Made by a program: the position numbers and the translations under genes
Origin: a virus
Direction: 5' to 3' (one strand)
Length of the DNA: 24,123 nucleotides
IMG/VR virus record: IMGVR_UViG_3300024357_000029
Location: 1 to 24,123 of that record
Part shown: one piece after another, positions 2,932 to 19,249 of the stretch
How positions within the stretch are numbered: the stretch's first letter is position 1
Layout: each line of letters opens with the position of its first letter
The notes under the pieces: generated by a model
Databases searched by the model: none
Told to the model about the DNA's origin: nothing
Seen by the model: only the letters and a program-made list of their open reading frames with translations

Positions 2932-3918
2932 ATGGCTAATACGCTAAGAATTAAAAGAAGGGCAACAGGGGCCACAGGCGCTCCCTCTAGCCTAAAAAAT
3001 GCTGAACTTGCATTTAATGAAGTTGATAAAGTTCTTTACTACGGTCTGGGTACTGATGGCAATGGTGATGCTACTACTATAATAGGAATTGGTGGTGAAG
3101 GATCTTTTGTTACATTAACAAGTGCTCAAACACTATCTGGCAATAAAACATTTACTGGCAACGTAGCTCTGGGTAGCTTGGCAACTGCTACTACACAAAC
3201 CCCCGGCTCAAATACAACAGCAGTAGCGACTACAGCGTTCGTTACTGCTGCTGTGTCTGCTGCAACATCTGGCGTGTCATCTGTTGCTGGTACTGCCAAT
3301 GAGGTTCTTGTTAATGGTGGAACCACCGCAGCAACAGGTGCAGTAACATTAAGTTTGCCTTCTAATGTTACAATTAATAATGATTTATTAGTAAGTAATA
3401 ACTTAACTATAACTGGTAACTTAACTGTTAATGGTACGACTACAACAGTTAACTCAACAACATTAAATGTTGATGATAAAAATATCATTATCGGTAACGT
3501 AGCTACTCCAACAGATACTACTGCTGACGGAGGCGGTATCACACTTCAAGGCACTACCGACAAAACAATTAGTTGGTCGAATACTACAAAAGCTTGGACT
3601 CTTTCTGAAGATCTAGATATTGTATCTGGCAAAGTATTTAAGATAAATAATACATCTGTTCTTTCAAATACAACTCTTGGGTCTGGTGTTGTCAACTCTT
3701 CGCTGACGAGTGTGGGCACTATCGGCACAGGTGTATGGCAAGGCACCGCTGTTGCCGTTCTCTATGGCGGTACTGGCGCTACTACCCAATCTGGGGCTAG
3801 AACAAACTTAGGCCTTGGAACAATTGCTACACAGAATGCAAACAGCGTTTCAATAACTGGTGGTAGTATAAGTTCTATAACTCTTGATCTCGTAACGGTT
3901 GATGGAGGAAGTTTCTAG
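2932..3918 (+). CDS. Tail fibre protein
   Basis: This encodes 328 residues with ATG immediately after the previous stop and GGAGGAA about nine bases upstream. Residues 1-40 (MANTLRIKRRATG, then NAELAFNEVDKVLYYG) form the conserved N-terminal segment of many phage fibres. Next come repeat-like parts, TLSGNKTFTGNVALG and TQTPGSNTTAVATTAFV, then a long Thr/Asn/Val beta region with TITGNLTVNGTTTTVNSTT. The last 60 residues have VLYGGTGATTQSGARTNLGLG and a run ending in GSISSITLD, both common fibre-repeat patterns. It likely forms a trimeric fibre for host binding. There is no obvious chaperone or peptidase domain at the C terminus. Confidence 0.85.
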   Translation: MANTLRIKRRATGATGAPSSLKNAELAFNEVDKVLYYGLGTDGNGDATTIIGIGGEGSFVTLTSAQTLSGNKTFTGNVALGSLATATTQTPGSNTTAVATTAFVTAAVSAATSGVSSVAGTANEVLVNGGTTAATGAVTLSLPSNVTINNDLLVSNNLTITGNLTVNGTTTTVNSTTLNVDDKNIIIGNVATPTDTTADGGGITLQGTTDKTISWSNTTKAWTLSEDLDIVSGKVFKINNTSVLSNTTLGSGVVNSSLTSVGTIGTGVWQGTAVAVLYGGTGATTQSGARTNLGLGTIATQNANSVSITGGSISSITLDLVTVDGGSF

Positions 3919-3933
3919 AATTAAGGAGCTTTC

Positions 3934-4422
3934 ATGGCTAATACTATTAAAATAAAAAATTCTAATATAAGTGGAAATGTGCCATCAACTCTAGAGTATG
4001 GTGAATTAGCAATTAATTATAACGATAGTTCTCTTTTCCACAAAGATAATAGCAATGTTATTATTAAAACAGATTTAGCATTTAATTTAGTTTCTACATT
4101 CACATATCCCGGAACCTTATCGGTTTCAACTGGATCGGCCAGATTCTATATGCATAAATCTGGAACAATAAAAAATGTAATTGCTTCAGTTGGAATATCT
4201 CCAGCAGGCTCATCGGTTGAAGTAGATATATTAAAAAATGGAACTACAATATTTACTGGTGGAACAAATAGACCAATAATAACAGCAGGTAACTATGTAG
4301 ATACTAGTTCGATTCCAGCAGTAACATCTTTTTCTGCGGGAGATTATTTTACTGTAAATATAGTATCAATAGGATCTTCAACTGCTGGATCAAACTTAGT
4401 GGTAGAATTGATCTATAACTGA
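3934..4422 (+). CDS. Second fibre-type protein with beta-sandwich C terminus
   Basis: This encodes 162 residues behind AAGGAG (3924-3929). Its first 40 residues (MANTIKIKNS, then STLEYGELAINYNDSSLFHKD) are the same kind of N-terminal segment as in the 2932 gene, pointing to attachment at a similar site. The remainder (from TLSVSTGSARFYMHKSG, with VEVDILKNGTTIFTG and SFSAGDYFTVNIVSIG) looks like a single jelly-roll domain of the sort used in receptor-binding heads. It lacks the long repeat shaft of its neighbour, so it may be a short fibre or a tip piece. Confidence 0.78.
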   Translation: MANTIKIKNSNISGNVPSTLEYGELAINYNDSSLFHKDNSNVIIKTDLAFNLVSTFTYPGTLSVSTGSARFYMHKSGTIKNVIASVGISPAGSSVEVDILKNGTTIFTGGTNRPIITAGNYVDTSSIPAVTSFSAGDYFTVNIVSIGSSTAGSNLVVELIYN

Positions 4423-4436
4423 TATAAAGAGGGAAA

Positions 4437-5249
4437 ATGGCAGATTCGGATATTCAAATAACAGCGGGTTCTGGAACAAAGGTAGATACTAGAACTGTAG
4501 GAACAGGTTCTGATGAACATAGACAGGTCATAGTAATCGGAGATCCAACAACAGCGGCCAACGTAGCGCCAGTTGATGGAACTTATGGTCTTGAAGTTGA
4601 TGTAAGCAGAGTAGTCCCCGGTACAGGGGCGACAAATCTAGGCAAGGCTGAAGATACAGCTCACGTTGACGGGGATGTTGGCGTGATGATGCTTGGAGTG
4701 CGTAATCACTTTACTGGCAGTAATACAGATGGTGATTATGCTGCTTTATCTGTTGGTAGTTATGGCGATTTAAATACTTTAAGAAGAGCAGATTTAGTTA
4801 AATTAAGTAATACATCTGCAGGATTAACAACTGCAACAACAACCTATGCAATAGGAGATCAAACTGGAACAATATTTACATTACCTAATGCTGCTAGATT
4901 ATCTAATGGTGGTGGAACTGTCGTTGGTATTACATTGATTGATTCATCGGATGTTATTGGAGCAATGGATGTTGTTCTTTTTGATTCCAGCGTAACTTTA
5001 GCAGCAGATAATGCTGCCTTTTCTATATCAGACTCAGACGCAAACAAAATTATTGCTTTAGTACCTCTTGCAGGCGCAACAGATATCGGAAACAACAGGA
5101 TAGCTCAATCATTTAACTTAGCTGTACCATATATTTGCTCTGGTGGTAATACATTATATGCTGCCTTAATAACAAGAAGCAACAATGCTGTATATTCTAA
5201 TTCTGGAGTTACAAGTTTATTGTTGAATGTTTATGTGGAAAAGAACTAA
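4437..5249 (+). CDS. Structural protein of unknown place in the virion
   Basis: This encodes 270 residues; ribosome binding site AAAGAGGG. The N-terminal part (SDIQITAGSGTKVDTRTV, then EHRQVIVIGDPTTAANVAPV, then TYGLEVDVSRV) follows a pattern I associate with phage structural proteins from environmental phages. From residue 95 on there is a two-part beta domain that includes GDYAALSVGSYGDL, FTLPNAARLSNGGGTVVGITLID and an end region with LYAALITRSNNAVYS, which resembles domains seen in capsid- or tail-fibre-associated proteins. The stop overlaps the next start (TAATG), implying coupled translation. No enzyme motif is visible. Confidence 0.72.
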   Translation: MADSDIQITAGSGTKVDTRTVGTGSDEHRQVIVIGDPTTAANVAPVDGTYGLEVDVSRVVPGTGATNLGKAEDTAHVDGDVGVMMLGVRNHFTGSNTDGDYAALSVGSYGDLNTLRRADLVKLSNTSAGLTTATTTYAIGDQTGTIFTLPNAARLSNGGGTVVGITLIDSSDVIGAMDVVLFDSSVTLAADNAAFSISDSDANKIIALVPLAGATDIGNNRIAQSFNLAVPYICSGGNTLYAALITRSNNAVYSNSGVTSLLLNVYVEKN

Positions 5250-6503: not shown

Positions 6504-7346
6504 ATGTCAAGAATGTATATGGCGGGCTACAATGGCTCAACTCTAACAGAGGCCGCTTTAAATGTTTGGAATCCTTGGGTCAGAATAGATCCAGAATTTA
6601 GAAGAAGGTTGAAGCTTCTCATGGACGCATCAATTGATGCTGGGAAGCAGGTCGGTATTGGCGGATCTTGGAGATCCTCTAGTAGTCAATTAAATCTATT
6701 TCTATCAAGGTATACCCCTGAAGACGATGGCGATCTAACAGGTGATACATATTGGCCATATACATTAAATGGTAAATTAGTTGATTATTGGGAGAAGAAA
6801 CCTAATGTAGCGCCAGCAGCACCTCCCGGTCTTTCTTATCATGAAAGCACCACAAAGGCTGGTCATTGCTTAGCTGTTGATATGGTTGGGGATCTCTCTT
6901 TTGTACATCAGAATGTAGGAAAATTTGGGCTTATTCATTTTGGAAATATAAATGGAGAACCTTGGCATATACAGCCATATGAAATACCTCATTCAAGAAG
7001 ATCATATAATTCAACAATACATGAACCTCTCAAAGTATTCCAGAGCACAGCGCCAGTTCCTCAACCACCCAAGCCAGCTAAGCCTGTTGTTGTGGTCCCA
7101 GTTCCAACATTAAGACTTACATCGCCCATTACAGCAAATAAAGAAGTTTTAAAGCTACAGCAGATATGCACATTCTGGGGCTGGTATACGAGCAAGTGTG
7201 ATGGATGGTTTGGTGTTCAAACTGAATATGCTGTTAAGAAGATGCAAACTGCATTAAAGATAACAGCAGACGGCGTGTATGGCCCAGTGACTGCGGCGGC
7301 TTATAAAAAATTTGCTGAGACTATTACGGCTATTGCAGTTAACTAG
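6504..7346 (+). CDS. Endolysin: M15-type peptidase with peptidoglycan-binding domain
   Basis: This encodes 280 residues with GGAG (6495-6498) before the ATG. Residues 30-160 fit the VanY/D-Ala-D-Ala carboxypeptidase (peptidase M15) fold: SWRSSSSQLNLF, then SYHE (His113), GHCLAVDM (His121, Asp126) and GEPWHIQP (Glu152, His155). The AVD and the E..WH pair are the typical zinc ligand and catalytic region. A Pro/Val-rich linker (about 182-203) leads to a peptidoglycan-binding type 1 domain (about 208-272) with LKLQQICTFWGWY, DGWFGVQTEYAVKKMQ and ADGVYGPVTAAA. It should cut cross-links or stem peptides in the host wall at lysis. No signal peptide is evident, so a holin is expected elsewhere in the genome. 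The ligand His113-to-Asp126 distance is longer than in the usual SxHxxGxAxD motif. Confidence 0.9.
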   Translation: MSRMYMAGYNGSTLTEAALNVWNPWVRIDPEFRRRLKLLMDASIDAGKQVGIGGSWRSSSSQLNLFLSRYTPEDDGDLTGDTYWPYTLNGKLVDYWEKKPNVAPAAPPGLSYHESTTKAGHCLAVDMVGDLSFVHQNVGKFGLIHFGNINGEPWHIQPYEIPHSRRSYNSTIHEPLKVFQSTAPVPQPPKPAKPVVVVPVPTLRLTSPITANKEVLKLQQICTFWGWYTSKCDGWFGVQTEYAVKKMQTALKITADGVYGPVTAAAYKKFAETITAIAVN

Positions 7347-7370: not shown

Positions 7371-7378
7371 TGTATAAT
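7371..7378 (+). promoter_or_regulatory. Predicted promoter of the cysteine-rich peptide gene
   Basis: TATAAT (7373-7378), preceded by TG, lies in the gap after the endolysin. Transcription from about 7385-7387 would cover the strong ribosome binding site at 7407 and the peptide gene at 7418. The start point also coincides with another ATG at 7387. No convincing -35 is seen. Confidence 0.5.
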
Positions 7379-7386
7379 CTATATAG

Positions 7387-7428
7387 ATGAACTACATCAA
7401 AGATTTAGGAGGGTTTTATGAGAAATAA
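7387..7428 (+). other. Possible 13-codon leaderless leader ORF
   Basis: ATG at 7387 sits nine bases after the TATAAT, where the message should begin. It reads MNYIKDLGGFYEK and stops at 7426-7428, passing through the AGGAGG of the next gene (7407-7412) and ending 10 bases past its ATG. If translated it would control access to that ribosome binding site. Too short to be trusted as a gene on its own. Confidence 0.25.
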
Positions 7429-7495
7429 AACTTGTGATTGCGGCTGCGAGTGCGTTGAACATTGTGATTGCGGTTGCGAAGAATGTGACTGCTAG
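7418..7495 (+). CDS. Cysteine-rich 25-residue peptide, metallothionein-like
   Basis: ATG at 7418 follows AGGAGG (7407-7412) at a 5-base distance, one of the best ribosome binding sites in the window. The product has 25 residues of which nine are Cys (positions 6, 8, 10, 12, 16, 18, 20, 23, 25), in CxC steps. The unit CDCGCE occurs twice, encoded 30 bases apart with only synonymous differences (GGC/GGT, GAG/GAA), which argues for selection on the protein. Dense CxC patterns with acidic residues and one His suit binding of Zn(II), Cu(I) or Cd(II), as in metallothioneins, but no known metallothionein family is claimed. It has its own predicted promoter. It lies between the endolysin and the neck genes, ending seven bases before the next start. 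Confidence 0.7.
   Translation: MRNKTCDCGCECVEHCDCGCEECDC
7432..7479 (+). repeat. Two-copy direct repeat inside the Cys-rich gene
   Basis: TTGTGATTGCGGCTGCGA (7432-7449) and TTGTGATTGCGGTTGCGA (7462-7479) differ at one of 18 positions and are 30 bases apart. Both copies encode CDCGC, so the peptide looks like an internal duplication. Confidence 0.85.
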
Positions 7496-7502
7496 GTGAA
7501 AA

Positions 7503-8450
7503 ATGGACAACGTTAAAATAAATACTTCCAAGACATTGACGTTAACACTACCATCTGATCCAGATTCAAATCAGGTGTTTGTTACGCTTATTCATGATCT
7601 TGGAAATGATGTTGTTGTTTCTAATACGGCAGCAACAAGAGTATCGGCAGGAGTGTATCAAATAACATTTGGCCAAGCCGCCTCTGGAATATATGTTTTA
7701 AATTCTTCTGGGATATATAAAGCAAAATTTACTTATTTAAAGTCGGGTACTGAATATAATCAGTATCAGGTCTTTAGCGTATATGCCCCATATATAGATT
7801 CTGATACCTTCTTTGAATCATATCCAGAATACATAAATAAATTTGAAGACGTTTTTGATAAATTTGAATTAAAAGCTAGAAATATTATTAATACATATTG
7901 TGGTCAATCTTTTGATTTCTTCCCAGCAAAAACAATATATGTAGATGGAAACAATCATGATATTTTACATCTCCCATTACCAATATCTACTCTAACAAAG
8001 GTTACTGTAAATCCAGATATGTCTGGGCAAGAAGTTATACATGACTCTTCAAATTCTTCTATAAATAAGATAGAGAAGCCAAGACAATCAGGTAATTTTG
8101 AGGCTTCTTATTATATAAGATATAAATCATCTTCTTCTGAATATTCATCTGCATTTACTGGCGAATCTACTGGTGTAAATAATAAATTTTCTTCCAAGAG
8201 CACATTCAAAATAGAAGGAGACTTCGGTTGGAGATATGTTCCTAGCTCTGTTGAGCAAGCCGCAGGTCTTCTTGTAGCTGATTTTATGAATGATGACTCT
8301 GAATTTAGAAGGCATGGAATCATAGAGGTGGATATAGATAGATTTACCACCTTTAAGTTCAAAGGTAATTTCTATGAGACTACTGGCAATATTGATGCTG
8401 ATGTTCTTTTAATGGATTACACATTATTTGTGATGGATTATATAATTTAA
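7503..8450 (+). CDS. Head-tail connector with N-terminal Ig-like domain
   Basis: This encodes 315 residues with AGGTGA (7494-7499) upstream. Residues 1-95 look like an Ig-type beta domain (TLTLTLPSDPDSNQVFVTL, AGVYQITFG, GIYKAKFTYLKSG). From about residue 97 the pattern changes to that of gp6/gp15-like head-tail connector proteins: SDTFFESYPEYIN, KFELKARNIINTYCGQSF, IYVDGNNHDILHLPLPI, and near the C terminus a GWRYVPSSVEQAAGLLVADFM helix followed by DSEFRRHGI. Connectors form a ring under the portal. The fusion of an Ig-like domain in front is unusual. The stop overlaps the next start (TAATG). Confidence 0.75.
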   Translation: MDNVKINTSKTLTLTLPSDPDSNQVFVTLIHDLGNDVVVSNTAATRVSAGVYQITFGQAASGIYVLNSSGIYKAKFTYLKSGTEYNQYQVFSVYAPYIDSDTFFESYPEYINKFEDVFDKFELKARNIINTYCGQSFDFFPAKTIYVDGNNHDILHLPLPISTLTKVTVNPDMSGQEVIHDSSNSSINKIEKPRQSGNFEASYYIRYKSSSSEYSSAFTGESTGVNNKFSSKSTFKIEGDFGWRYVPSSVEQAAGLLVADFMNDDSEFRRHGIIEVDIDRFTTFKFKGNFYETTGNIDADVLLMDYTLFVMDYII

Positions 8451-11382: not shown

Positions 11383-11411
11383 TTGCTTTATTTATTAAAG
11401 AATGACATAAT
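11383..11411 (+). promoter_or_regulatory. Possible promoter ahead of the tape measure gene
   Basis: TTGCTT (11383-11388) and extended -10 TGA + CATAAT (11403-11411) are separated by 17 bp. Transcription would start near 11418, about ten bases before the ATG at 11429. The hexamers are only partial matches to consensus. Confidence 0.35.
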
Positions 11412-11428
11412 TGTTACTGGATGGCAGT

Positions 11429-14400
11429 ATGACAATAGACAAGTATACGATTGACATTCAGGTTGGAGGCATTAATAATTTAACTGCGCTAAGCAGCGCA
11501 ATGTTAAATTTAAATGCCGCTGTTAAAGGCAATGTAAAGATTGCCAAAGATTTCGATGCTACCCAGAGTGCGTTAAGTACGGCTCTGGGTAGAACCGATA
11601 AAGGCGTTCAAAATCACGCAAAAAATTTAGGACAACTTGTAGCAAATCAATCTGTTCTAGGTAATGAATATAGAAGAGTAAAGCGTGATATAAATGAATA
11701 TAGAACTGGTCTAGCATCGGCTACAGTCCAGCAAGCAAAGAATCTACCTCAATTAGAATCATATGCAAAGGCTTTAAAAGGAATTAAAGCAAGAGCTTTT
11801 GCTGATGATTTGAAATCAATGACTGTTGAAATGAAGCGTCTTGGTAAAGATGCTCAATTCACTGGTAGATCAATGATTATCGGTCTTACAACGCCTATTT
11901 TAGCATTTGGTAAAACAGGTCTTGCTACTTTTGAAAAAGTAGACTCTGAATTAATTAGACTAAATAAATTAATTGAGGGTATGGCATCCAGTATGGATAA
12001 TGCGTTCCAAAAAATGGGAACGTCTGCCGGAGAGGCATCTCAAGCTGCTATTCAGCAAGCAGAAGAGATGGTTAAAACTTATAAAAAAGTAGATCAAGCT
12101 CTTATTGATATATCTTTAAGATATGGTGATGCTAGAGAATTAATTATAAGTATTGCCGGTGATTTTGCTGAATTTGGTTTTATTGCCGAAGACAATATTG
12201 TTGCATTAACTGAGCTAGCGGCTCAAGCAGAAAAATTGGGGTCTATGGATATTGGGCCTTCAAAAGATTTGCTTACATCAATGTATGCTCAAGCTAGCTT
12301 ATTAATACAAGAAAATGAATTAGCTCATAATAGAGTAACTGATGCTTTAGAAATAGAAACAAAAGCAGTAAATGTTGCTAGAGGGCAACTATACATGTTT
12401 AATGCTGTTGAAAACGCAACAGCTCTCTCTCTAAGAGATCTCGCTTCTGCATTCCCTGAAGTAGCGGCATCTGCCACCACATTCGGTCTTACAATGACTG
12501 AATCTGCCGCTCTATTAGCGCCGATGAAGGCCGCTGGTTTCGATATTGGTGCAGCAGCAAATGCAATTAAAGTATCTCTTCAGAGATTAAATGATCCTAC
12601 TATAAAGAGCACTGAGCTTATTGGTCAATTAAGTCAAGTAACAGGGTTTGACTTTAAACAATCCACTCACATCGGTTTAACTGCAATAGACGCATTGACT
12701 AAAGGATATGATCATTTACAAGCATCTACAAACTATGGCAGAGAGGGTGCTCTAGAATTTTTTGATGAAGTATTTGGTGTTCGTCAAGGGCCTAGAATGC
12801 AAAGGGCAATCGCTGATCTTAATATATTTAATCAAGCGATGATTCGTAGTGGAACTACTGAACAGAAAATAATTGGCATGGCCAGTAAACAGCTTCAGAT
12901 TGGGGACAGTGCTCTTAAAGCCATCAGATCTTTTAGCGATATAGGCGCTGTTGTCAGAATGGCAAATGCTGAAATTGGTGATCAAGTTAAAATTCTTGAT
13001 GAATTCGGCAAAGAAGCTACGATAGTAGTTAGTAGAAGAGATATAGACGCAGCAAAGAAAGCTAGAAAAGTAGTTGGCGATTATATTGACCAGCAAGCCA
13101 AGGAAGGCAAAGATATTTTAGCTCAAGTAACTTCGCAAGCTGGTCGTGCATTAGTTGTTGAACTAGGCGGCGTTGGTGAAGCTCAGAATAGAGCAACTTC
13201 TGAACTTAAAACGGCACTAGATTCAGTTAAAGTATTTATTGAACAAATAAGAACTAACTTTAAGATTTTTGCTGCTGATTTCATAGAGTCTTTCAAGCCA
13301 ACTATTGAAACAATAGCCAATACTGTCAAATCTCTAGCAGAAAAATTTAGAGAATTAGATCCTACTACTAAGAAAATAATCGCTGGGTTTGCTGGCATCG
13401 TTGCACTAGCTGGCCCACTTGTTTTTGCTTTCGGTCAGGCTAGACTGCTTCTAGCTACAATCTCTAATGTTGCTTTAAAACTTCTTCCCGGTCTTGCTAA
13501 CCTAACAGTAGAAAGCTTTGCCGCTGGCGATGCTTTATTAAGATTAAAAAAACCAGTAATTCTTGTTGGCGATAGTTTTGAAACTGCTGCGTCTAGAAGT
13601 TCTCTATTTATAGCAAAACTTGCAAATATGAATGGCCCAATAGGGGCTTTAGCTAGAAAATTTGGTGTCTTAACTGGTGCATTAAAAACAACTAGGACTG
13701 CGGGTGATGATGTTGTTGCTAGATTGGCTGCAATAAATAGTCCAGCTCAGACGGCTAGATTAGGTGGGGCTGCTCAATTAAGATCTCTTGGAAATTTCCC
13801 TCCTAATCAACTACCTCCCCCTGTAGTGCCCCCAAATACTCTAACCAATGCTGCGACTCAAGCAGCTAGTGCTACAACACAAGCAGCCAATACGGCCGCT
13901 ACAGCTACTACTACTGCAGCAACAACCGCTGCAACCACTACAACCGCTGCTGCAACAGCAGCAGCCTCTAGCGCAACATCCGCGGCTGCTGGTGCTGCTG
14001 CATCAACAACTACCGCAGCGGCTGCTGCTTCCACCACTGCAGGCGCTGCAACCGCTGGAGTAATATCATCTTCAACTGCCGCTGTTGCTTCGATGAATGC
14101 TGCTACAACCACTGCTGCTACAGCAGTTACTGCAGGAGCCACGCAGGCATCTACAGCCATTGCTGCTCAACAGGTGGATTCTGAAAGATGGATTGCAGGA
14201 TCGGCTCAGAGAAGGATAGCCAGAGAACAAGCCAATCTTGCTCGCACAGAGGCTACTTTTAGCAGTTTAAATCTTGGATTTGACGCTGCTCTTCAAGAGG
14301 CAAATGCAATTTTTGCAACTAATACTACCCAATTAACAACAGCGGCAACTACTGTCGCTGAACAATCGGTTTTTGGACTAGTTGCTGCTCTTGAAGAATC

Positions 14401-17400
14401 TGCTGCTGGATTTATTGCTGCTCTTGAAGCAGAAGCAGCAACTGTAACGGGCATGGCTGCCTCTATTGAGGGGGCTGCTGGCCTTTTGTCTGCTGCAGGA
14501 GTGGAATTAAATACTGCTGCGGCTAGCCTTGTAGCCGCTAGTGCAGCTATGCCAGCCGCAATGGCTCAATCTTTCGCAGCAATGATGGCTACTCCCGCTC
14601 TTGGTGCTGGCCCAATGGCTATGGGCGCTTTGCCTGCCGCTGGTGCATCCAGTTTTGCAAATGAATTTGGATATATGCGCAGCCCTAGTGCTATGAATCC
14701 TAAAATAAGTATGAATCGTAAAATAATTGAAGCTACGATTGCTAATCCTCAACCTCTGGCGGCATTACCTGCTGCTGGTCAAACAAGCGTAGCTTCAAAA
14801 CACCTACCTGTTCGCGGCCCCGGCGGAAGAATGATGCCAAGATACACAGCGACTCTGGCAGGCCCCGCTGGTGGATACTTTCCAGCGACTGGCGGTGTTG
14901 CTGCAGGCATAGCCGCCGATGTTGAAAGAGCCATGATGCCTCCACAATTAGCTCTTCCTGCTGCTGGCCAGACTGTTAAGGCTACAAAATGGGCAGCGAC
15001 TCCTGCTTTTCAGGCATTCCCTGAAAGGGAGTTTGCAAATGCATTTGAGGCGAATAGGTTAACGCCCAGAATTACACAAGCAATTCCAATGGGGCCTGTT
15101 CCTGAAATTCCATCAACCGCAATCCCCATGGGGCCGGGGCCTTTCCCGATGCCAGCAGTTCCTGCCGCTACACCTGACTATTCAAATATGCCAAGAAAAG
15201 CTAAAAAGGCAGCAAAGGCTGCTGCTGCAAAGAAGGCACAAGAAGCATCTGCTGCAGCAAAAGCAGTAACTACTCAAGCGACAACTGCTGCTGCCGTTAC
15301 TGCACAAGAAACCGCTGCAGCAGCAAAAGCCGCAGAGCAAGCCGCAGCAGCAGAAGCTCAAAGGGAATTGAGAGCAGCAAAAAGAGTTGCCGCTGAAACT
15401 TTGAAGAAAGAGACTGCAGCAATAGAGACTGCAGCAGCCACTGCTATTCCAAGATCAGCTCCCACCCCGTTCAATCCAAAGAGTGGATCTTATGTAAGTC
15501 AATTATTTAAAGCAGCAGAAGGCGATATACCGGGTGCTCCTGCGGGTAGTGGTGCTGCATTCGCACAAAATGCAGTAGCTATGGAAAAAGCCAAGACTTC
15601 TACTAAATCAAGAAGATTTTTTAGGAACGTTCTAAGAAAGGGTCCGGTTGCTAATGTAACGCCCATGTCTTTAAGACCAGCTATAGAGAATGCTCTTCCA
15701 TTTGAAGATGAAATAAATCAAAGATTTCTTCAAACTAAATATACTGGCGACAGATTAGGCGATAAGGCTAGGCGTAGCGGTGGTTTAGCCAAAAAGAGAC
15801 TTGGATTATTTGCTGGTTCTGCGAAAAGAAAGGCTTTAGCTGCTGGTGAATTAATTTCTTCTGGGGCTTCTAAAACAGGTGAACTAATTGGATCAGGCGC
15901 TGCTGCTGCAAAAGGCCTTGGCACTGAAGCTCTCCAAAAAGCCAATAAAGCTGCTATATCTTCAATGGCTGCTTTAGAAACAGCCTCCACAAGAAGTATG
16001 AATGCAACTGCTAAGGCCGTTGCAGTAGGTTCTGATAAGGCTGCCTCTGGTTTTAGACTATTTGGTAGAAGTGCTAAAGATGCAGCTAATAAGCTTGGTG
16101 CTTTTAATGATAAACAAATTGACAAATTAAAAGCCAGAGTTGTTCCAAGAGCAAGACAATTTGCAACAGATTTTTCAGATGGTCGTATAGCCAATGCTGG
16201 TAGGGGCGGACTTGGGGTTGTTAAAAAAGTTACTGGTTTCAATGCAATATCTGGCGGTGTATCTGGAACTAAGAATGCCATAAATCAACTACCTGCTGGT
16301 GCTGGAGTATTTAAAAAACTCACGGCAGGCGTTTCTGGCTTTGCTGGTGGATTAAAGGGCACTATTGGGATAATGAAAGTATTTAAGATGGCCTTCCTTG
16401 GGCTTGGCATCACTGCAATCATTATCGGTATAGTTGCAGCAGTTAAAATTTTGATTGATATATTCAAGAGCGGTGGAAACACCATGAGTAAAGTTGGAGA
16501 AAATTTCTCCAAAGCTTGGGGATATATAAAGTCAGCTGTTACTGCAGTAATCAAGCCAATTAAAGATGCAATATTTACTCTCGTAAGCATGGCTGGAAAC
16601 GGCGGTGGTGTCAAGGGTGGATTCCAGAAAATATCTGAATTCATAATGAATATGGCTAAAACAATTAGTGATTTCGTTAAGAAATACATTGTACCTGCCA
16701 TTAAGTTTGTAATGACTCAAGTTGTAAACCTTATAAAAGGTATTGTGAAGATTGTTCAAGGAGTTATTGCCCTATTCAAGGGTGATACAGATAATGCTTG
16801 GAAGAGAATCAAGGAAGGCCTTGTCTCTCTAGCTAGAGTGATTCTAAAGATTGTATTAAAGATTGTAACTGGATGGATAAGCCTATGGGCTTGGATGGTT
16901 AAGTCAATAATTAAATTGGTTGCAAAAATAATTTCTTATATTATAAAAGGAATTGGCGGAGCCATACAATGGGTCGGTGAAAAATTTGCAAGCTTTGTAG
17001 AGGGAATACCATTTATAGGTGAAGGCCTTGCTGACGGAATCAGAGGGACTGTCAATACAATAAGCGATGCATTAGATTTGGCTGGCGAGGGCGTTGAGAT
17101 TGTTGCTGACGGAATCGCTAGTGGTGTTGACACTGTTGCCAACGGTGCTATTGGTGCAATAAATAATGTTGGTGACGCTGTAATTACTCAACTTAATAAA
17201 TGGGGAGGCGGCGAGCAAAAATTACTCTCACAAACCAAGAAGAAAGAGCAGGGAACTGATCGTAGAGCACCAAAGGTAGAAGAAGTAGCCTATGATCAAA
17301 TGGGACAGGGCATAGAAAATGCTGCAGAAAGTGCAGCAAAGAAGATAGCCGATGCTGTCAAACAAGCCCTTGAATCTCTGCAGCAAAAATTTGTTGATCT

Positions 17401-19249
17401 TGTTTTAGGTCAATTAAATGATTCTTTGAATAAAGCTACTAATCAAATGATAGAAGCTCTTGAAAAACAAAAAGATGCTGCTCTAAAAGTTTATGATGAT
17501 CAAGTAGAGAATCTTGAAAAGATTCAGAAGGCCGAAGAATCTCTAACGAAAGAGATGCAATATCAGGCTGATAGAAGAAGAGTCATAAAGGAAAGAGAGC
17601 TACAGGTTGAAAATTTCCAAAGAGATCGCGCTTTGGCTATCTATGAGGGAAGAATAGACGACGCAAGAGTTCTTGCTCTTCAAGATGTAAAGAATAATGA
17701 GGATTATCAACAAAGTCTTAAAGAAATTGATACTCAAAGAAATAGAGATCTTGCTCAAGAAAATCTTGATGCTTTAAGAAAGAGCATCGAAGAAGCAAAA
17801 AATCAAGCATCTAAATTTTTTGATGATCAGATTGAAAACTTCAAAAAAGCCGCAGAGGAAATTACTAAGTTTCCACCATTAACCATTGAAGAATATAAAT
17901 CTCAACTTGATAAATTGAATGAAGCAGCAACTACTGCTGCTACAACAAATAGTTCCACTTTCTCAGACATGATTGAGAATATGGTAACTACTATGAATGA
18001 TAAGATTCCTAATAAAGGAGTCCCAGCATTTGAAAATAATTTAAATCAATTAGTTCAAGTAGCTCATGATAAATATGGTTTAGGTGAAGATGGCATTGCT
18101 GGAATGACAGTAGCAATGCTTGAAAATATTGGAGCTACTATAGATGGTAATACATTTATTAATGAAAGCTTTACTGCATTAGTTGATAGTCTTAATGAAA
18201 GCGCAGATGCTGGATTTAAAAATATTGCTGAATCTATACTTACACCCGCTCTGGACGATTTTGCAAATATTATTACAGAACATGACCCATTCAAAGTTCT
18301 TGCCGAAGCGGTAGCATTTGCTAATGAAACTATTTTAAGAGAAATGCAGGCTATGGTTACTGGCTCCGCAAGCAAAGTTGGGTGGTTACTTCCATATTTG
18401 GATCAGTATATAGTTAAATTAGCTACATTGGCTGCTATTCAGGGAGTAGTAAACGACGGAACAACGACACCGGGTGGATTGCCTCCCGCCAATCAGCCAA
18501 TAAATCTTCATGATTCAATTTATGGTTGGTTTGATAAGCCAATACAAAGACCCGGTATTTCTTATTTCAATAACGCTAGAATGTATGGTGGTAGTATTCC
18601 AATGAAAGCATATGCAAATGGTGGATCAATTCAGTCGTTTGCAGCTGGTGGTGTTTCTTCCAATAATAAGGGGATGGTTACTGGTGGATTTGATTCTACT
18701 GGTGTCCCCGCTCTATTGCACGGTGGAGAATTTATTGTTAATGCTAAGGCTGTAAAAAATATAGGTTTAGCTACATTAACTCTTATGAATAATTTAAGAT
18801 TCAATAGAGGTAAAGATATAACAAATACTGGAATGACTGGTGCTAATAATATTAATAATTTAATTATTAACGATAAACCAAATGCCAATCTAGGTAAACC
18901 ACCGACAGCTTCCGTACCAGTAGAATTAATATCTATCAATCCAAAAGTTTTTGATTTTATTCAAAATTTAAATTCTCCAAAGTTTGAAGATATTAAGTTT
19001 AGACAGCCCAAACCAATAAACGATATAAACTTTAGATCTCCTGAAATGAAGAATCCTCAATCAGGTATAGTTAATAATACAAATAGCAATAGCACTATTA
19101 ATATCTATGTAGATAATTTCATAGGTGAAGATCAATGGTTTAATGAGATGATTAAACAATATAATATGAATGTTCTTCCAAAGAAAGAAAAAGGAGCCGG
19201 TTTAGAGAATAGAGTAATATCTTCTTATAGCGGCCTTGCAAGAGGTTAG
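11429..19249 (+). CDS. Tail tape measure protein
   Basis: This is 2606 residues from ATG 11429 (GGATGG four bases upstream; an in-frame TTG at 11411 would add six residues). Residues about 165-470 show the TP901-type tape measure core (EKVDSELIRLNKLIEG, ELAAQAEKLGSMDIGPS, ASAFPEVAASATTFGLT, FFDEVFGVRQGPRMQ). Then come a hydrophobic helix near 660, an Ala/Thr low-complexity region (about 808-912), a Pro/Ala-rich part with LPAAG repeats, a Lys/Ala helix region (about 1255-1338), a transmembrane-like segment (about 1655-1677), amphipathic and hydrophobic helices (1780-1870), a long coiled coil (1990-2150) and a C-terminal part with STGVPALLHGGEFIVNAKAV, a conserved tape measure ending. It sets tail length and is probably ejected with the DNA. 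Confidence 0.93.
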   Translation: MTIDKYTIDIQVGGINNLTALSSAMLNLNAAVKGNVKIAKDFDATQSALSTALGRTDKGVQNHAKNLGQLVANQSVLGNEYRRVKRDINEYRTGLASATVQQAKNLPQLESYAKALKGIKARAFADDLKSMTVEMKRLGKDAQFTGRSMIIGLTTPILAFGKTGLATFEKVDSELIRLNKLIEGMASSMDNAFQKMGTSAGEASQAAIQQAEEMVKTYKKVDQALIDISLRYGDARELIISIAGDFAEFGFIAEDNIVALTELAAQAEKLGSMDIGPSKDLLTSMYAQASLLIQENELAHNRVTDALEIETKAVNVARGQLYMFNAVENATALSLRDLASAFPEVAASATTFGLTMTESAALLAPMKAAGFDIGAAANAIKVSLQRLNDPTIKSTELIGQLSQVTGFDFKQSTHIGLTAIDALTKGYDHLQASTNYGREGALEFFDEVFGVRQGPRMQRAIADLNIFNQAMIRSGTTEQKIIGMASKQLQIGDSALKAIRSFSDIGAVVRMANAEIGDQVKILDEFGKEATIVVSRRDIDAAKKARKVVGDYIDQQAKEGKDILAQVTSQAGRALVVELGGVGEAQNRATSELKTALDSVKVFIEQIRTNFKIFAADFIESFKPTIETIANTVKSLAEKFRELDPTTKKIIAGFAGIVALAGPLVFAFGQARLLLATISNVALKLLPGLANLTVESFAAGDALLRLKKPVILVGDSFETAASRSSLFIAKLANMNGPIGALARKFGVLTGALKTTRTAGDDVVARLAAINSPAQTARLGGAAQLRSLGNFPPNQLPPPVVPPNTLTNAATQAASATTQAANTAATATTTAATTAATTTTAAATAAASSATSAAAGAAASTTTAAAAASTTAGAATAGVISSSTAAVASMNAATTTAATAVTAGATQASTAIAAQQVDSERWIAGSAQRRIAREQANLARTEATFSSLNLGFDAALQEANAIFATNTTQLTTAATTVAEQSVFGLVAALEESAAGFIAALEAEAATVTGMAASIEGAAGLLSAAGVELNTAAASLVAASAAMPAAMAQSFAAMMATPALGAGPMAMGALPAAGASSFANEFGYMRSPSAMNPKISMNRKIIEATIANPQPLAALPAAGQTSVASKHLPVRGPGGRMMPRYTATLAGPAGGYFPATGGVAAGIAADVERAMMPPQLALPAAGQTVKATKWAATPAFQAFPEREFANAFEANRLTPRITQAIPMGPVPEIPSTAIPMGPGPFPMPAVPAATPDYSNMPRKAKKAAKAAAAKKAQEASAAAKAVTTQATTAAAVTAQETAAAAKAAEQAAAAEAQRELRAAKRVAAETLKKETAAIETAAATAIPRSAPTPFNPKSGSYVSQLFKAAEGDIPGAPAGSGAAFAQNAVAMEKAKTSTKSRRFFRNVLRKGPVANVTPMSLRPAIENALPFEDEINQRFLQTKYTGDRLGDKARRSGGLAKKRLGLFAGSAKRKALAAGELISSGASKTGELIGSGAAAAKGLGTEALQKANKAAISSMAALETASTRSMNATAKAVAVGSDKAASGFRLFGRSAKDAANKLGAFNDKQIDKLKARVVPRARQFATDFSDGRIANAGRGGLGVVKKVTGFNAISGGVSGTKNAINQLPAGAGVFKKLTAGVSGFAGGLKGTIGIMKVFKMAFLGLGITAIIIGIVAAVKILIDIFKSGGNTMSKVGENFSKAWGYIKSAVTAVIKPIKDAIFTLVSMAGNGGGVKGGFQKISEFIMNMAKTISDFVKKYIVPAIKFVMTQVVNLIKGIVKIVQGVIALFKGDTDNAWKRIKEGLVSLARVILKIVLKIVTGWISLWAWMVKSIIKLVAKIISYIIKGIGGAIQWVGEKFASFVEGIPFIGEGLADGIRGTVNTISDALDLAGEGVEIVADGIASGVDTVANGAIGAINNVGDAVITQLNKWGGGEQKLLSQTKKKEQGTDRRAPKVEEVAYDQMGQGIENAAESAAKKIADAVKQALESLQQKFVDLVLGQLNDSLNKATNQMIEALEKQKDAALKVYDDQVENLEKIQKAEESLTKEMQYQADRRRVIKERELQVENFQRDRALAIYEGRIDDARVLALQDVKNNEDYQQSLKEIDTQRNRDLAQENLDALRKSIEEAKNQASKFFDDQIENFKKAAEEITKFPPLTIEEYKSQLDKLNEAATTAATTNSSTFSDMIENMVTTMNDKIPNKGVPAFENNLNQLVQVAHDKYGLGEDGIAGMTVAMLENIGATIDGNTFINESFTALVDSLNESADAGFKNIAESILTPALDDFANIITEHDPFKVLAEAVAFANETILREMQAMVTGSASKVGWLLPYLDQYIVKLATLAAIQGVVNDGTTTPGGLPPANQPINLHDSIYGWFDKPIQRPGISYFNNARMYGGSIPMKAYANGGSIQSFAAGGVSSNNKGMVTGGFDSTGVPALLHGGEFIVNAKAVKNIGLATLTLMNNLRFNRGKDITNTGMTGANNINNLIINDKPNANLGKPPTASVPVELISINPKVFDFIQNLNSPKFEDIKFRQPKPINDINFRSPEMKNPQSGIVNNTNSNSTINIYVDNFIGEDQWFNEMIKQYNMNVLPKKEKGAGLENRVISSYSGLARG
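13850..14165 (+). repeat. Ala/Thr low-complexity tract in the tape measure gene
   Basis: About 105 codons are almost all GCN or ACN, with CAA, AGC and TCA interspersed; the protein reads as runs such as TTAATTAATTTTAAATAA. Trinucleotide-like repetition makes all other frames open here too, so apparent minus-strand or shifted ORFs in this stretch are artefacts. It is likely a helical or flexible spacer. Confidence 0.85.
15190..15450 (+). repeat. Lys/Ala-rich low-complexity tract in the tape measure gene
   Basis: The encoded segment alternates Ala runs with Lys, Glu and Gln (KKAAKAAAAKKAQEASAAAK and similar), as expected of a long single helix. It is distinct in composition from the Ala/Thr tract upstream. 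Confidence 0.75.

Follow-up and report, generated by a model that had tools for sequence, protein, structure and literature searches.

A conserved nine-cysteine microprotein family in the lysis cassettes of uncultured phages of probably aquatic actinobacteria

The 25-codon open reading frame at positions 7418-7495 of the viral DNA studied here (the window, a stretch of 24,123 nucleotides) belongs to a genuine, conserved viral protein family that is under purifying selection and occurs widely among uncultured phages whose hosts are probably aquatic actinobacteria. Its gene accompanies the lysis cassette, which is found at two genomic positions and with endolysins of several types, and some lineages do without the peptide. 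We think it probable that members of the family are metallothionein-like peptides with a single metal-thiolate cluster, produced late in infection from the last gene of the cassette. An earlier note had pointed to this gene, with nine Cys residues at 36% and an AGGAGG site, lying between lysis and neck genes, and the sequence, its translation and the flanking genes agree with that description (Table 1).

Table 1. Features of the window at and around the microprotein gene
Feature	Position	Strand	Basis or remark
Endolysin, VanY/M15-type motif and PG_binding_1 domain	6504..7346	+	Upstream neighbour of the peptide
TATAAT -10 box	7373..7378	+	Promoter of the peptide-neck operon by reading
AGGAGG ribosome-binding site of the microprotein	7407..7412	+	Sequence; 5 nt 5' of ATG
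Nine-Cys microprotein gene	7418..7495	+	25 aa, MRNKTCDCGCECVEHCDCGCEECDC; ORF translation, family, selection
First CDCGCE unit	7433..7450	+	Sequence
Second CDCGCE unit	7463..7480	+	Sequence
Head-tail adaptor (neck) gene	7503..8450	+	Downstream neighbour, 7 nt past the peptide

Nine of the 25 residues are Cys, spaced as CxCxCxC-x3-CxCxC-x2-CxC with no adjacent Cys pair. Besides one His, the peptide contains acidic residues and Gly; aromatic residues are absent, as are hydrophobic stretches. We shuffled the window 200 times with dinucleotides preserved and counted open reading frames of 15-60 aa with at least 30% Cys and at least six Cys; none arose in the shuffled windows, and the real one holds a single such frame, the microprotein gene itself. 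The earlier note had taken the duplicated CDCGCE unit as an argument against chance because the copies differ only synonymously. This is true of the window, where there are two base differences, both synonymous, but not of the family as a whole, in which the halves have diverged (e.g. CSCGCE/CDCGCD). Since the near-identity of the units is peculiar to the window sequence, family-wide conservation is the stronger evidence. A recent local duplication is superfluous as the origin of the peptide, the two-half structure being old in the family.

Using a DNA pattern constrained by hardly more than the Cys spacing, a single Gly and the stop codon, we found 69 matching IMG/VR contigs, of which 68 are true members with one copy apiece, comprising 32 distinct protein cores or variants. 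The same pattern gave no members in 84,980 bacterial and archaeal species genomes, where all six matches were low-complexity or broken, and a host origin of the peptide was rejected on the basis of this collection. So that the result would not presuppose the Cys residues, we also searched with each half of the peptide separately: all nine Cys were present in 52 of 52 matches to the N-terminal half and in 67 of 71 matches to the C-terminal half, the remaining four being unrelated. Over 20 independent pairs, pN/pS was 0.14 for all codons and 0.40 with Cys codons removed, and all 57 differences in Cys codons fell at the third position. Because this set was drawn with the nine-Cys pattern, its Cys component is conditioned, and the weight lies on the non-Cys value and the half-pattern searches. 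The CxC spacing is invariant across the family, with an adjacent Cys pair only in the L204 type (ECC); core position 14 is Gly in 40 of 40 sequences, using four codons, and core position 16 is D or E in 39 of 40. The invariant Gly with its four codons, the pN/pS values and the half-pattern searches together indicate that the frame is selected as protein. Thus, the search of related contigs and the comparison of synonymous with non-synonymous change both support the earlier claim of a real phage peptide, and a spurious reading frame is ruled out by conservation, selection and the shuffling.

As the earlier note had supposed, the peptide fits no family that can be named: no match was found in Pfam, NCBIfam, PHROGs, PADLOC or PDB sequences, including a Pfam search of five members at E values up to 10, and the nine-Cys family is not described in the literature and family libraries that we searched. 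A tblastn search of phages with the 25-mer also returned nothing, a null made uninformative by the BLAST low-complexity filter, and looser nine-Cys and K-x-C patterns were discarded, as they returned mostly low-complexity or chance reading frames. Separate Cys-rich phage microproteins of 40-48 aa with other Cys spacing (e.g. MSNCKNCGCGCHCGQSCTDCWECPDCDC... and MKTCKKCGCTCHCKDELHADDYGVCTCDDCRC...) were seen at 7186-7326 on the minus strand of contig L330 and in L341-L351. The L330 gene precedes an SNase gene and several of the others precede a tail-type gene; these are possibly more metallothionein-like phage peptides.

Across the family, the cassette begins with small membrane proteins of 61, 82 and 66 aa types, whose likeness to holins was judged by inspection alone, and continues through the endolysin and sometimes an SNase to the peptide as last gene; the earlier note had not remarked on this close tie to the cassette as a whole. 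It lies before the neck gene in 21 contigs, the window's type, and before a BppU-like/tail-assembly gene in 45, and in two further member contigs the peptide follows an SNase. Among 80 loci carrying relatives of the neck gene, the peptide is immediately 5' of that gene in 13 and about 2 kb further upstream in five. In 57 of 68 contigs an endolysin directly precedes the peptide or is separated from it by a single gene; the distance is about 25-150 nt in most copies, and in many the start codon of the peptide overlaps the endolysin's stop codon (TGATG or TAATG), which suggests that translation of the two is coupled in those copies. The gap to the following gene is about 0-34 nt. Several side observations concern these regions. 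An SNase (thermonuclease) gene lies directly 5' of the nine-Cys peptide in L054, L202, L230, L226 and L243, lineages that include contigs in which the usual cassette is not visible. Within the phage lysis region of L032, positions 3847-5142 encode a 431-aa secreted Thr/Pro-rich protein whose C-terminus (LPKTG, a membrane segment and a basic tail) forms a sortase-type anchor. Elsewhere in the window, a 2,612-aa tape-measure-type reading frame (11411-19249) contains a long Ala/Thr-rich low-complexity stretch.

The TATAAT box, which the earlier note had assigned to the peptide alone, is real and conserved in relatives, but it appears to serve the neck operon. GTATAAT occurs upstream of 8 of 15 distinct neck-adjacent copies, the TATAAT promoter survives in relatives with a decayed peptide, and in a peptide-less clade TATAAT or TACAAT directly precedes the neck gene. 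Since the promoter persists after the peptide has decayed, it is best read as that of the neck operon, with the peptide as first cistron. Most copies, including that of the window, have a Shine-Dalgarno sequence or overlap the upstream gene; in L056, L058 and L235 only 6 nt separate the TATAAT from the ATG, and a leaderless start is possible there. We also noted that the sequence 5' of the neck gene in L012-L053, CTGTTATAATTGAATATTATG, has a -10 box immediately ahead of that gene's ATG, an arrangement which suggests that the late transcript of the peptide-less clade is leaderless.

The earlier note had named a broken frame between the same flanking genes as a finding that would refute a real peptide. 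Such frames exist in L016, L026 and L028, where the flanks are as in L058 and L235, the start codon and about 50 bases are gone, and a scar ending in TGCTGA is left; L027 and L029 carry the same scar ahead of the neck gene. Because these broken frames lie inside a family otherwise under purifying selection, we read them as decayed remnants that show dispensability, not as signs of a spurious reading frame. In the neck-gene tree, a large sister clade keeps a VanY-type cassette with about 32 noncoding bases at the position of the peptide. The peptide itself occurs on either side of the deepest split of this tree (by midpoint rooting only), which makes an old origin followed by losses probable.

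The whiB gene, which is confined to Actinobacteria and their phages, was present in 25 of 31 contigs tested. The capsid protein of the window shares 50% identity with its counterpart in large Streptomyces phages, and within the phage collection the neck gene matched Streptomyces phages only. Together, whiB, a published marker for Actinobacteria and their phages (PMC6802176), and the Streptomyces-phage-like capsid protein place the hosts among the Actinobacteria, presumably uncultured and probably aquatic ones.

A single metal-thiolate cluster fits the nine Cys, set in CxC steps among acidic residues and Gly, with neither aromatic residues nor a hydrophobic stretch, and we infer metal binding as the best explanation of this composition. 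The peptide shows the features by which metallothioneins are recognized, namely low mass, very high Cys content, CxC motifs and few aromatics. That it works like a metallothionein is our leading hypothesis; it falls outside the known families in which membership could be tested, no sequence link to metallothionein families was found, and no metal-responsive regulator was seen beside it. In the reducing cytoplasm, the nine thiolates would wrap one cluster of roughly three Zn(II) or Cd(II) ions or, with Cu(I), roughly six. Linkage to lysis suggests action late in infection, and as the host cell dies, at about the time of lysis, the peptide may buffer soft metals or oxidants; we make no claim on which metal is bound, nor on altered lysis timing. 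A bolder version, which we regard as doubtful, is that a metallopeptide of the lysis module controls metal supply at lysis, by activating the endolysin, triggering the holin or shielding virions from metal and oxidants in the lysate. To our knowledge, such control is not a described step in phage lysis, and our literature search found no metallothionein encoded by a bacterial virus. Should metal binding hold, few known metallothionein-like proteins would be as short as this peptide, and through its link with the lysis cassette a possible participation of metals in phage lysis becomes testable.

A lysis regulator that binds a zinc-dependent M15-type endolysin or its zinc, keeping the enzyme inactive until the holin opens, or that delivers zinc to it, seems to us unlikely, for all the closeness of the endolysin and the frequent overlap with its stop codon. 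Most peptide-adjacent endolysins are indeed VanY (PF02557) or M15-like, the latter without a significant Pfam match and with invariant SVHxTxxAxD...HxE residues. The window endolysin has VanY motif residues in common with that of L068, and an AlphaFold model of the M15-like L237 endolysin has its best, weak PDB matches in the zinc peptidases VldE and LdcB. However, the endolysin of L108 is an Rv2525c-type glycoside hydrolase, six contigs have a small membrane gene and not the endolysin as immediate neighbour, and the residue preceding the fifth Cys follows genome placement, not endolysin type. The earlier proposal that the peptide supplies zinc to the adjacent M15 endolysin is weakened accordingly: the endolysin type swaps freely among M15-like, VanY and glycoside hydrolase forms, and in the large sister clade VanY-type endolysins occur where the peptide is absent, both of which argue against one dedicated zinc client.

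A Cys-responsive leader, in which ribosomes stalling at Cys codons control the next gene, has a precedent in mycobacterial Cys-codon-rich leaderless sORFs (PMC9031893), shares their actinobacterial context and would suit the three copies whose TATAAT is 6 nt from the ATG. We nevertheless judge it highly improbable, given the selection on non-Cys residues, Cys codons that alternate with others in the window peptide, the short gap to the next gene, and a place that is usually last in the lysis cassette. The RNA has a weak consensus fold with 0 compensatory pairs and an unpaired downstream Shine-Dalgarno sequence, single-sequence folds differ among members, and the downstream genes are of two unrelated kinds by placement, neither of sulfur metabolism. 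CxC peptides could alternatively be thiol donors or binders of a protein target, and a thiol/redox peptide or an inhibitor of a host metal-dependent protein (e.g. by removal of Zn, Cu or Fe-S metal) would recall the scavenging of reactive oxygen species by metallothioneins (PMC7387436) and the many ROS-defence genes of freshwater phages (PMC6802176). The invariant Cys spacing is unneeded for simple thiol donation, and we give this reading little credence. We prefer the metal-thiolate peptide to lysis-regulating, redox and anti-host roles.

Among known systems, the beta domain of mammalian metallothionein also has nine Cys in CxC steps, which form a single M3S9 cluster, but its spacing is different and it is part of a two-domain, Lys-rich protein, whereas the phage peptide is Asp/Glu-rich. 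SmtA/PmtA (PF02069) and MymT share the prokaryotic setting and Cys richness and are folded proteins of roughly twice the length; the PF02069 profile had no match in five member peptides or in 21 phage contigs, and no SmtB-like regulator was seen by the peptide. The family 8 Cu-metallothioneins of Neurospora crassa and Agaricus bisporus are similarly CxC-rich and of nearly the same length (26 versus 25 residues), but they are eukaryotic, Gly/Ser-rich and have seven Cys, compared with nine Cys and an acidic composition in the phage peptide, with no detectable homology. The shortest fungal Cu-metallothioneins have 26 residues, and the family 8 pattern is CxC-x5-CxC-x3-CxC-x2-C (PMC4755600), which the phage spacing does not match. 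Mycobacterial polycysteine leaderless ORFs (Canestrari 2020) are likewise short, Cys-codon-rich, actinobacterial and located ahead of another gene; they have contiguous Cys codons and attenuate that downstream gene (PMC9031893), whereas the phage peptide has non-contiguous Cys, selection at the amino acid level and no conserved RNA structure. The Zn3Cys9His cluster held by a Pseudomonas metallothionein (PMC7387436) has a ligand count equal to that offered by the nine Cys and one His of the window peptide.
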